Assembly (NCBI GenBank): GCA_015655075.1
Contig: JAATFT010000019.1
Span: 1 to 64,000, forward strand
Source of the DNA: Clostridiales bacterium
GTDB taxonomy: Bacteria; Bacillota; Clostridia; Lachnospirales; Lachnospiraceae
Reading direction: 5' to 3'
Length of the DNA: 64,000 nt
Below the pieces are notes generated by a model. That model was not told the DNA's origin, ran no database searches, and was given only the letters and a program-made list of their open reading frames with translations. Within the stretch, counting starts at the first letter, position 1. Each line of letters opens with the position of its first letter. Of the stretch, positions 18 to 63,496 are shown piece by piece. A program made the translations under genes and the position numbers.

Positions 18-171
18 TTTTCTGAAAGCTGATTGTTCTGAACGCCCCACTTTGCGGTATACTGCGTCGCAATTTTGGGAGCGTAGCACCAACTGCGCGC
101 CCAAAATCGCTCCTGGCCTCCCGCAAAGTGGAGCATCCAACCCGGCACAAGCATTTTTCAAACACACTCTA
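18..171 (+). mobile_element. MITE-like hairpin element, copy 1 (degenerate left end)
   Basis: This is a copy of the ~160-bp hairpin family described at 50146-50310. The right inverted end TTTTTCAAACACACTCT and the internal TTTGCGG/CCGCAAA arms are clear. The left end is badly decayed, so its border is approximate. It lies just beyond the 3' end of the GH1 gene at 204-1640. The small open frame running through it is not a gene. Confidence 0.75.
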
Positions 172-203
172 AAGTTCCAAAATTTTAATATATTAAAAAA
201 ATT

Positions 204-1640
204 TTACAGTTCTTCTCCATTTGAAGAAATAACATTTTTATACCAATAGAAGGAATCTTTCTTACTCCTATGCAAATCTCCTGTTCCATCGTCATACTTA
301 TCTACATAAATAATACCATAACGCTTTGCCATTTCACCGGTAGATGCGCTGACTAAGTCTGCACATCCCCATATTGTATATCCTATTAAGTCTACTCCAT
401 CCTCAATCGCTTTTTCCATTTGTTCAATATGTCTTTTCAGATAATCAATACGGTATAGGTCATGTATCGTGCCGTCTTTTTCTAAAGTATCATGGGCTCC
501 GATTCCATTTTCAACAATCATTAGCGGAATATTATAACGGTCATACAAATCATTTAATGCAATTCTTAAGCCTACCGGGTCAATCATCATATTCCATTTC
601 GACTGCTCTAAATAAGGGTTATTTACACCTGATCCCCCTATCATACTATGCCCATTTTTCTCTACACTCTTATCGTAAGAGCAACATAAGGTTAAATAGT
701 AGGAAAACGCATAATAGTCAACACATCCCTTCAAAAGAATCTTTTTGTCTTCTTCTGTAATATCAATTTTTATTCCCTGTTTTTCAAAATAGTTCAATGC
801 ATAATACGGATATTTACCTTTTACCTGTACATCACCGCAAAACTTAGAATGCATGTTTTCTTCCTGTTTTGCTAATAATACATCTTCCGGTTTACAGGTA
901 TATGGATATCTTGGCATATAAGAAATCATACACCCTATTTTAAATTCCGGATCGATGGAACGTCCCAGTGCTACTGCCCTGGCACTGGCTACAAACTGAT
1001 TGTGCAATGCGGAATATCTTTTTTGTATATCGTCCGGCTGATTTGTAAAATCACATGATTTTGTGTGGATTCCTAATGACAGGAAATTTCCTATATTCAA
1101 TGTTGCCGTATTGATTTCGTTAAAAGTAAGCCAATATTTAATTTTTCCCTTATACCGTGTAAAGATCGTTTTACAATATTTCACATAGAAATCAATTAAT
1201 TTTCTGCTGCTCCATCCGTCGTATTTTTCTGATAAATATGCCGGAATATCAAAATGCGCAATGGTTACCACCGGTTCTATTCTATATTTATTCAATTCAT
1301 CCAGGACATGGTCATAAAATTGTAACCCTTTTTCATTCGGCTGCTCTTCAATTCCAAGTGGATAGATTCTCGTCCAATTGATGGAAAAGCGAAATGCCTT
1401 AAAGCCACACTCGGCAAATAAGCGGATATCTTCTTTATAATGATGATAAAAATCCGTTGCTTCATGACTTGGATACAAATACTTGTCTTCGATATATTCC
1501 GTTATCTTTCTTGGGGTACTATGCGTACCGCTTGTGATTAAATCGGCACAGGCTAAGCCTTTTCCATCTTCATTGAAAGCACCTTCATACTGATTTGCGG
1601 CAGTTGCCCCGCCCCATAAAAAACTTTTTGAAAATGCCAT
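204..1640 (-). CDS. GH1 6-phospho-beta-glucosidase
   Basis: This family hydrolyses 6-phospho-beta-glucosides delivered to the cytoplasm by the PTS, giving glucose 6-phosphate and an aglycone or glucose. The 478-aa protein has normal family length. It shows the N-terminal [11 protein letters not shown] motif, the acid/base glutamate in TFNEIN (about residue 175), the nucleophile glutamate in IVENG (about 377), and the late S-x-K-R-Y-G phosphate-binding motif in [15 protein letters not shown] that marks phospho-glucosidases. Its ATG overlaps the stop codon of the upstream PTS gene by one base (TAATG), which implies translational coupling. It is the last gene of an operon controlled by the RAT site upstream of licT. 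Natural substrate (cellobiose, salicin, arbutin or similar) cannot be decided from sequence. Confidence 0.93.
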
Positions 1641-3493
1641 TATACTATCACCGTTAATAATCCATCTGTAGATGTTACCTGCTTTTGTATTGTAGGAATT
1701 ACATCCAAATAAGAATCTGTATTTGTAACCACTACAATTACAATTGGATCATATCCTTTCTCCCTAATATATTTTTCATCAAAATTTAAAAGGTAATCGC
1801 CTTGTTTTACTTTCTGATTCTCCCTGATAAGCACTTCAAAGCCTTCTCCATTTAGATTTACGGTATTAATGCCTACATGAATCAGAATTTCCACCCCCTC
1901 ATCAGTTGTAAGGCCTATCGCATGTTTGGTTGGGAAAATTGTCGTTACTGTCGCATTTGCAGGAGAAACAATTCTTCCGTTAGCTGACTCAACGGCAATT
2001 CCCTTTCCTAATGCACCGGAAGCAAAAGCCGGGTCGTTTACGTCAGATAATGCTACCACATTTCCATCTGTACTTGCATGTATCACTGCTTCTTTTCCAA
2101 TTGAGACTGTTGTTTCCTGGTTTACTTTTTCATTATTCTTTGTATTCTTTGGTGATAAGTCTTCTCTTTTCACCAAGAACCAAGTCATGCAAAATGCGAT
2201 AACAAGTGTAGTGGCAACAGAGATGCAAGCATTTACAAAGTTAGGCATGGTAACCATAAAGGTTGGCAATGCTGCAAAGGAGGCAACTAATGCATATGCT
2301 TTTACTCCTGTGAGCCCTGCATACAGACCACCGCAAGCACCAGAAACGATGATTGCGATTAACGGCTTCTTTAATTTTAAGGTTACACCATATAAAGCTG
2401 GTTCTGATATTCCCATACAGGAAGTAATTGCAGTTGAAAATCCCAACTGTTTCCATTCGCTATCTTTTGATTTTAATGCAACTGCAAGACAAACACCCGC
2501 TTCGGAAGCTATTCCGACAAGCATTCCCGGAACAATCAGGTTATCATACCCAAAGGAAGTAAAGGTTGCCATTAAAATAGGCATCAAACAATAATGCATA
2601 CCCGTCATAACCAATAGCTGAGCAAAGGCTCCCATAAACATGACTGCTAACGGAGCATATCCATTCATTAAAAACGATAAGAAATCAGCAATATAATTTC
2701 CAATATAGGTTCCTAAAGGCCCTAAAAGCAATAACACTACCGGCGCTGAAATTGCTATGGTAATAAGTGGTCTTAAGATAAACTTTAAAAAATTTGGAAC
2801 AAATTTATCAGCAAATTTATATATGTAAGACATGAACCAAACGCCAAGTAAAATCGGAACTACAGAAGCACTGTAGGTAACATTCTGTACCGTTAATCCA
2901 AATAAGGTGACTCCATTTTCCTGGCTTAATAAACTTGTCATACCGGGAAGCACAAGTACTCCGCCTAACAACATACCTAAAAATGGATCAATTTTAAATT
3001 TATTTGCAATCGAATATCCTAAATAAATTGGCATGAAATAAAAAGCTGCCTGTGAAACCTGATACAATACCAGATAGGTATTGCTGGTATCCGATAAAAT
3101 ACCTGCCATAGATAAAATCGACAAAAGGACCTGCAGCATACCGCCTGCAGTAATAACTGCAACAACAGGAGTAAAACAACTGGCAATAAAATCTAAAAGG
3201 CCGTCAAAAGTCTTGCCCTTTTTCTTAGTTTCTAAGTCCTCTCCACTCCGAATACCAAGTTTCATCAGTTCATCGTAAACACTGGCAACATCCGGTCCGA
3301 TGATGATCTGAAACTGCCCGTTTCCTTTCACCACTCCGGATACCCCTTTTGTTTCCTTGATAACGTCTGCTCTTGCTTTTCCTTCTTCTTTTAATGTAAA
3401 ACGAAGTCTTGTTGCACAATGGATTACTTTTTCTATATTCTCTTTTCCGCCGACATTTTTTAACAGCGTTGATGCTAATTCTTTATAATTCAT
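1640..3493 (-). CDS. PTS beta-glucoside transporter EIIBCA
   Basis: This is a membrane PTS permease that imports and phosphorylates beta-glucosides. The domain order is B-C-A in one 617-aa chain. EIIB carries its phospho-cysteine at about residue 26 in [13 protein letters not shown] is the long hydrophobic middle. The glucose-type EIIA holds its phospho-histidine at about residue 539 in [11 protein letters not shown] start at the ATG at 3493, with GGGAG seven bases upstream; an in-frame start at 3520 exists but has no better ribosome site. The gene lies between licT and the phospho-glucosidase gene, so EII, hydrolase and antiterminator form one catabolic unit. The second PTS system at 35695-37610 has EIIA as a separate protein. 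Confidence 0.93.
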
Positions 3494-62919: not shown

Positions 62920-62973
62920 AAATCCCTCCCCTTCGGTCTTTCGGTTTCTCTCGTAAAAAGATGGGTATTAAAG

Positions 62974-63162
62974 TTAATTCTGGCCTGGTATAATGACGGC
63001 CGCTATGATATAACCTATAACCCCCGCACCGCCTGCAAAACAAAATAAAGCCCACAGCAACCTGACTATGGTGGGATCCAGATTAATGTATTCCGCAATT
63101 CCTCCGCATACCCCTGCAATCATTTTATTTGTATCGGATCTGTACAATTTTTTTTGTTCCAT
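62974..63162 (-). CDS. PspC-domain small membrane protein
   Basis: This 62-aa protein is almost entirely one PspC domain: KKLYRSDTNKMIAGVCGGIAEYINLDPTIVRLLW, followed by a hydrophobic segment (ALFCFAGGAGVIGYIIAAVIIP). PspC proteins in Gram-positives act in envelope stress responses. No pspA or liaS-type gene is near. AGGAGG lies ahead of the ATG. Confidence 0.9.
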   Translation of the reverse strand: MEQKKLYRSDTNKMIAGVCGGIAEYINLDPTIVRLLWALFCFAGGAGVIGYIIAAVIIPGQN

Positions 63163-63496
63163 TTTAATTCCTCCTGTTAATAAATTTTAAGTGCTATTTT
63201 ATCTATACCGCAATCCAAAGCAAAACTGCCGGCATTCTTTCTTCTGGTTTTGGAATTGCTCTGCCTTAACCGTTATTACTTAATTATAACAGTTCCTATA
63301 GCTCAGTCAATAGAAAATCAAAATCCGGGGCAAAACGTTTCTTATCCCTAGAGCGTGTTTGAAAAATCATCGCACCGTTCTGACCGCTCCTCTTTGCCTG
63401 TCCAATCACCGGAATAGATAATATTTATTATCTCCGATTATAATATAAAAATTCTCATGGGGCTGTTGTAAAATCTTAAGTTTGCCCTATCCATAC
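63163..63496. other. Intergenic region between the PspC gene and sdaA-type gene
   Basis: No gene was found. It contains the truncated MITE copy 9 (63349-63399) and, presumably, the end of the serine dehydratase transcript; no strong terminator hairpin was recognised. Confidence 0.5.
63349..63399 (+). mobile_element. MITE-like hairpin element, copy 9 (truncated)
   Basis: Only the left ~50 bp are present: TA, then GAGCGTGTTTGAAAAATC and the following ATCGCACCGTTCTGACCGC and TCTTTGC. Similarity to the other copies then stops. The right inverted end is missing, so this copy should be immobile. Confidence 0.8.

Follow-up and report, generated by a model that had tools for sequence, protein, structure and literature searches.

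A family of hairpin repeats in a Lachnospiraceae genome that is very probably mobilized in trans by an IS5-family insertion sequence

ERIC sequences are palindromic in form and insert at TA. In PMC10969869, ERIC sequences of enterobacteria are described as intergenic miniature inverted-repeat transposable elements (MITEs) whose copy number depends strongly on the taxon, the RUP, BOX, SPRITE, and Correia elements are said to bunch together and to insert into each other, and Correia RNA is said to be cleaved by RNase III. PMC2759123 adds RU-1 and RU-2, which are MITE-like intergenic repeats of 127 bp and 168 bp in enterobacteria. Here, we describe a family of 160-bp hairpin repeats in a stretch of 64,000 nucleotides (the window) from a Clostridiales bacterium of the Lachnospiraceae (contig JAATFT010000019.1 of assembly GCA_015655075.1, positions 1 to 64,000). 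All of these known systems are likened to the 160-bp family by description only; RUP, BOX, SPRITE, and Correia come from other hosts, and, in contrast to ERIC, the 160-bp family now has an identified partner insertion sequence (IS). In those parts of the open-licence literature that we could consult, we found no description of the family.

The repeats are very probably MITEs that are mobilized in trans by an IS of about 880 bp from the IS5 family, with which they have only the terminal 17–19 bases in common. This partner, a putative member of the IS427 subgroup of IS5, resembles other IS5-family elements of the NF033580 type in its length of about 880 bp, its ends of 17–19 bp, its two overlapping frames, and its DDE domain. 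The repeats differ from such elements in that they carry no transposase and share only the ends. This provides a concrete MITE/IS5 pair for the Clostridia (mostly Lachnospiraceae, judging by record titles).

The element is 160 bp long (164 bp including a TA on each side), and its ends, GAGCGTGTTTGAAAAAT, are set between the TA borders. The two arms are unlike, as one starts with GAGCGTGTTTGAAAAATCAT and the other with GAGYGTGTTTGAAAAATGCTT; we define the strand of a copy as the one on which the ...AAATCAT arm reads first. The window contains eight long copies and one fragment:

Copy 1, 18 to 171, plus strand: left inverted end missing or replaced (profile positions 1–155 of 164); one change in the right end.
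Copy 2, 13522 to 13685, minus strand: both ends exact; borders CA on the left and TA on the right.
Copy 3, 18010 to 18167, minus strand: changed at both ends; not found in the orthologous spacers of relatives.
Copy 4, 21027 to 21197, plus strand: one end changed; lies between convergent open reading frames (ORFs); not found in the orthologous spacers of relatives.
Copy 5, 26303 to 26465, minus strand: one end changed; not found in the orthologous spacers of two relatives.
Copy 6, 43161 to 43324, minus strand: one end changed; a mechanically called ORF of 118 amino acids (43096–43452) spans the copy.
Copy 7, 45799 to 45964, minus strand: left end heavily diverged (profile positions 1–144); a GH3 ORF extends into the copy.
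Copy 8, 50146 to 50310, plus strand: both ends exact; a GH130 ORF extends into the copy and has a DUF6783 match there.
Copy 9, 63349 to 63399, plus strand: fragment of 49–51 bases with a single end.

A preliminary description of the window had placed the repeat at these nine sites, four on the plus strand (1, 4, 8, and 9) and five on the minus strand (2, 3, 5, 6, and 7). The repeat is indeed present at all nine, and the asymmetric arms agree with the orientations. The ends are common to the family, as had been claimed, but several have decayed, and exact GAGCGTGTTTGA at both ends is found in copies 2 and 8 only. TA at the borders is correct as well, though some borders have decayed to CA or TG. 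The statement that all copies lie between genes has to be qualified: mechanically called ORFs extend well into copies 3, 7, and 8, another spans copy 6, and there are overlaps of 3 bases with copies 2 and 7. (In the GH130 ORF that enters copy 8, the conserved domain starts outside the copy.) The predicted folding of nested arms into one long hairpin was borne out: in all 46 unique full copies examined from the window's genome, one strand is the more stable, with mean energies of -94.4 versus -65.5 kcal/mol. The element is short, has terminal inverted repeats, and carries no transposase gene. Its classification as a MITE is supported: it is non-autonomous, duplicates TA, occurs in both orientations and at high copy number, and forms a stable hairpin.

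The window's genome is a 4.51-Mb draft in 98 contigs and is 78.6% complete. The exact 17-base end occurs 182 times in it (92 forward and 90 reverse), as compared to 0 times for the reversed control. A whole-genome search with copy 8, which had been proposed as a check, gave 318 first-look candidates, and the best 40 of these were scored at 90–100% identity over the main strand. In a 449-kb sample of the genome, we counted 61 exact ends, 38 near-full copies, and 68 matches altogether. From these we estimate about 110 full copies in the genome, or about 200 with fragments; this estimate uses the ratio within the sample, which was picked partly on known matches, and not the density. The 46 unique full copies have a mean pairwise identity of 89.5%, and no two are identical. 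(Our first profile, el.hmm, was built from copies of mixed orientation and was used on the window, the orthologous spacers, and the junction tests described below; a profile of fixed orientation was used for the counts of gene context and strand bias.) We also noticed shortened copies of about 60–110 bp that lack the central part of the hairpin and retain both ends (L034 723–834 and 3688–3750; L049 6140–6208 and 10967–11079; L041 1108–1217).

Across 15 genomes of the genus, the exact 17-mer is present in seven: 182 times in the window's genome, 23 times in G006, and 1–3 times in each of the other five (2 times in G013). The exact 19-mer end is present in just 2 of 150 genomes of the family, namely the window's genome (G000) and G115. 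Among named genomes, at least 108 stretches contain the 19-base end, and most of their titles are from Lachnospiraceae or other Clostridia; five of the listed stretches are from beyond the Clostridia (one from Desulfonema, two from a Deltaproteobacteria draft, and two from Verrucomicrobia). Plasmid and phage records gave no match to copy 8 at 1e-5.

The partner was found in a Lachnospiraceae draft (L161), in which an 880-bp IS at 171–1050 has the exact 19-mers at both ends. Its two overlapping frames match PF13340 and PF01609/PF13586, and both score above the cut-off of 110 bits for the IS5 family transposase model NF033580 (136.6 and 141.2 bits). G115 has four complete IS of 879–882 bp whose ends are those of the MITE, three of them identical over 879 bp, and a fifth whose right end was not recognized within the fetched stretch; these copies were assigned by Pfam only, and the NF033580 scores are for the IS of L161. 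The same genome has 14 distinct MITEs, all of 160 bp, in 20 stretches, as well as three stretches with a single recognized end, and IS and MITE occur there in tandem. In the window's genome, the C-terminus of the second transposase frame (33–34 residues, 82% identical) lies at three contig ends, and each then runs into the 19-base end that the MITE also has. On one of these contigs (contig 44), the end of the IS adjoins a MITE on a single TA. Thus, an autonomous element with the same ends is present in the same genome as the MITE, complete in G115 and partial in the window's genome.

The first transposase frame was found in 2 of the 150 family genomes, with five matches in G115 and one in G040. 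The IS end in G040 differs from the MITE end by one mismatch, and this genome was searched for the exact 19-mer only. The IS and the exact end co-occur (P = 0.0003, Fisher test) if the window's genome is counted as having the IS from its C-terminus matches; by the first-frame search alone, the overlap is one genome. The two frames meet near a run of A and then a run of G, and the A5G6 run in the IS of G115 is a candidate frameshift site. A Blautia draft has a palindromic element of 126 bp, both halves of which are like the left end of the IS (82% identity over 78 bp and 86% over 42 bp), and this sequence suggests one route by which such miniature elements arise. Separately, the left end of an IS5-family element that shares these inverted ends is found at the start of two contigs listed as viral in IMG/VR (L051 and L052), and also at the end of L051.

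Target sites were read from 84 ends in the 449-kb sample: T stands at position -2 in 75 of them and A at position -1 in 80, and position -3 has C in 58 and T in 24. The outer border bases are variable, which makes the duplication TA (2 bp) and the target YTAR, mostly CTAG; the table of borders is limited to the 32 copies in which both ends could be read. (A 4-base duplication of CTAG was ruled out by the same variation.) CTAG is about 8-fold depleted in the sample, with 191 seen versus 1618 expected, and makes up 0.5% of background NTAN words. Of the 191, 53 sit at borders of the 160-bp family, and together with 13 at the borders of a second MITE family (see below), with possible overlap, these account for up to a third of the CTAG present. 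Some adjoining elements have one TA in common, because the junction CTC-TA-GAG recreates CTAG. At 5 of the 31 gene 3' ends that lie beside a copy, the ORF stops 2–3 bases into the element (in the window, at 13683–13685), and its TAG stop codon is formed by the TA of the border plus the first G of the element, so that a gene ending in TAG would retain its stop after an insertion there.

We propose that an IS5-type transposase would bind the MITE ends and mobilize the 160-bp element in trans. Insertion would take place at CTAG-like sites, which are rare in the window's genome, and tandem arrays would be favored, as the new CTC-TA-GAG edges recreate CTAG. The one-strand fold, as RNA or as single-stranded DNA, may be selected in those copies that spread onward, perhaps because it renders insertions harmless or helps transposition, and not for a host function at each site.

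Filled and empty sites, which had been suggested as a test of mobility, were found as two base-exact pairs, both between paralogous repeats in relatives. In the first, a filled site at L088 1782–1941 corresponds to an empty one at L088 1104–964 (125 of 143 bases identical); in the second, L109 1558–1717 is filled and L132 2739–2634 is empty (94 of 107 identical). Neither alignment has a gap at the junction. Altogether, we compared 106 junctions to the collected loci; 13 matches spanned the junction, and most of these were tandem copies or self matches. The MITE profile had no match anywhere in nine stretches from the same genus. In orthologous spacers with both anchors present, the element was absent from 5 of 5 for copy 3, from 8 of 8 for copy 4, and from 2 of 2 for copy 5; in the remaining stretches, an anchor was lacking.

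Several points weigh against mobilization by this IS. Beyond the terminal 17–19 bases, the IS and the MITE have no evident likeness. In the window's genome, only some 135 bases of the IS are known, located at three contig ends, and its first transposase frame was not found there, presumably because the 78.6%-complete draft breaks at those places. A tblastn search with both IS frames, run on the loci collected before G115 and G040, found transposase in L161, at the contig ends of the window's genome, and in L164 only. (Other wide end-to-end spacings of 0.5–3 kb were covered by this search rather than by the family libraries.) In four MITE-bearing genomes (G005, G006, G010, and G013), an 11.6-kb query finds matches of 77–90% to its element stretches, and among the 15 genus genomes the second transposase frame was found in the window's genome only, plus a match at 52% in G010. 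In the MITE-bearing genomes where the IS was not found, it was either lost or falls into a gap of the assembly (G006 is 63% complete, but G013 is 98% complete), or a different transposase moves the element. As for mobility, the filled and empty pairs are paralogous repeats in relatives and not the same site in strains of one species, one empty copy has CTGA in place of CTAG, and a third candidate pair, from the window's genome, is weak and ragged at the junction. The orthologous spacers have diverged too far to yield empty sites at base precision, and several of the anchors fall short.

To compare the fold across genomes, we collected 62 two-ended elements from 26 assemblies, including G115 (one G115 copy was counted twice). 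A copy of 158–170 bp was available from 17 assemblies, and 14 of these copies were exactly 164 bp with the TA borders. We aligned the 17 copies with the consensus from the window's genome (alignment A2, 18 genomes). Of 57 predicted pairs, 23 have at least one sequence in which both bases are changed. The number of double-changed cells is 72, as compared to 19.3 (standard deviation 4.2) in shuffles, and 0 of 500 shuffles were as high. Furthermore, 95.3% of cells are paired versus 87.6% in shuffles, and sliding by 1–3 columns came nowhere near. The covariation is in the inner helices, and double changes are absent from the end helix. The cells comprise 847 Watson-Crick pairs, 129 G-U, 6 A-C, and 42 others, so wobbles are almost solely on one strand. 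In a rough parsimony reconstruction, single changes from Watson-Crick pairs on internal branches were 12 to G-U, 0 to A-C, and 4 to other mismatches, and those on terminal branches were 19, 6, and 10, respectively. Repair by template switching between the arms could recreate Watson-Crick pairs in the absence of selection, but alone it would not place the wobbles on one strand.

Changes that are specific to one copy in the window's genome have a different pattern: 14 of 52 single changes keep the pairing versus 15.3 expected (standard deviation 1.5), and 12 give G-U versus 10 A-C. The rate of such changes is 0.0097 in paired columns and 0.0087 in unpaired columns, and single-copy double changes left three pairs intact and five broken. 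Among single changes that occur in no more than two copies, 33 of 100 keep the pairing versus 34.7 expected. Over all variants, the figure is 164 of 285 versus 110 (standard deviation 5.7), and these variants are shared by descent and are not independent. Because the covariation across genomes is strong, yet copy-specific single changes ignore the fold, selection may act mainly on the spreading lineage and not on resident copies. Tentatively, then, the nested one-strand fold (in RNA or in single-stranded DNA) might be a transposition trait, and lineages in which it is preserved would be spread within and between genomes by the IS5-type transposase, while resident copies would decay largely regardless of it. 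We regard this as possible but doubtful. Double changes in at most two copies were paired in 18 cases and broken in 6, which is at odds with fully neutral decay; the 18 aligned copies are related, so their cells are not independent; and the copies were oriented by the more stable strand (the homologous asymmetry agrees with this orientation). If the idea is right, the fold is a selfish structural signal, and not a host regulator or a relic of a palindromic origin. The family could serve as a test case for why bacterial MITEs retain long hairpins. The family is also a caution for RNA discovery: it has covariation of the kind by which functional RNAs are called, while its single changes specific to one copy seem indifferent to the fold.

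The strong covariation, the wobble bias toward one strand, and the very stable fold of all 46 copies might instead mean that a structural RNA of the host, a terminator, or an RNase III site has multiplied and serves the adjoining genes. We consider this unlikely, given that the element was not found at orthologous spacers and that copy-specific single changes disregard the pairing. Nor is there a clear orientation bias relative to genes: between tandem genes, the stable strand is sense in 11 cases and antisense in 14 (n = 25), and it is on the majority gene strand in 15 cases and off it in 23 (n = 38), which is not convincing as a bias. Rfam gave nothing at the gathering score, and the best weak match, at 18.3 bits versus a cut-off of 79, is at chance level. 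A simple terminator scan of 12000–31000, limited to short loops and to a T-run that directly follows the stem, gave no site within copies 2–5. These findings argue against a general role in the host as a terminator or mRNA stabilizer, but local effects may occur.

Might the element encode a small protein family (DUF6783), or be an in-frame passenger, as Rickettsia palindromic elements are? Frame 1 on the strand opposite to that of the stable fold has no stops in the copies of 14 of 17 genomes and in 35 of 46 copies from the window's genome. Among the 14 copies (out of 17) of exactly 164 bp, which we used for both the shuffle and the selection tests, it is free of stops in 12, versus 18% in shuffles. 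The net insertion is 162 bp, or 54 codons, and matches to DUF6783 reach 94 bits. But the ratio of nonsynonymous to synonymous polymorphism (pN/pS) in the open frame is 0.81, the third lowest of the six frames (the others are at 0.63, 0.69, 0.91, 0.94, and 0.97), and thus does not indicate purifying selection on the amino acids. Also, only 3 of 38 copies lie inside a called ORF, and such an ORF is itself a putative gene. The opposite strand matches DUF6783 as well: PF20574 matches one copy from the window's genome on both strands (two of the six frames tried; three of the six were from the second repeat family and did not match). All four element frames from relatives match this model over 50–51 of its 60 positions, and four element frames had no match in NCBIfam. 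On this evidence, a coding role is very unlikely. Rather, DUF6783, which Pfam curates as a protein family, looks like a translated MITE, and we found no publication on it in the open-licence literature. As an apparent translated repeat, DUF6783 may lead annotation astray and lengthen genes at their start; an example is the GH130 ORF (window 49082–50293), whose N-terminal DUF6783 match falls within the part that is in copy 8.

The preliminary description had attributed the family to an IS630/Tc1-mariner element. IS630 prefers CTAG, and both the TA duplication and the CTAG-like target fit that origin. However, PF13358 (DDE_3) has no match in the window's genome and just one short match (positions 112–146) in one of the 15 genus genomes (the window's included). 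No IS630-type transposase with the ends of the MITE was found, and the IS that does have those ends belongs to the IS5 family, so we abandon this attribution as highly improbable. That the copies are REP/RAYT-type repeats, moved as single strands by a Y1 transposase, is hardly credible, for although they are mostly intergenic hairpins with a one-strand fold bias, they have terminal inverted repeats, duplicate TA, and share their ends with an IS5 partner of the DDE type.

The window and the 449-kb sample also contain other repeats. The second MITE-like family, of about 160 bp, has ends like GTGTGCTGACAAGTTGAT and CTAG borders and at times adjoins the first family on one TA. It has eight members in the sample, along with versions of about 35 bp that consist of little but the two ends (L018 and L047). 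A third intergenic repeat family has 10 members in the sample, and two further repeat families have four and eight. The members located for the second and third families are:

Second MITE-like family: window 9590 to 9680; L035 14768 to 14926; L029 2302 to 2460; L020 1666 to 1824.
Third intergenic repeat family: window 39240 to 39390; L034 2790 to 2930; L046 14810 to 14950.

Finally, eight tandem repeats of 42 bases at window 19553–20014 lie in the opening part of an ORF that has S1 RNA-binding domains.

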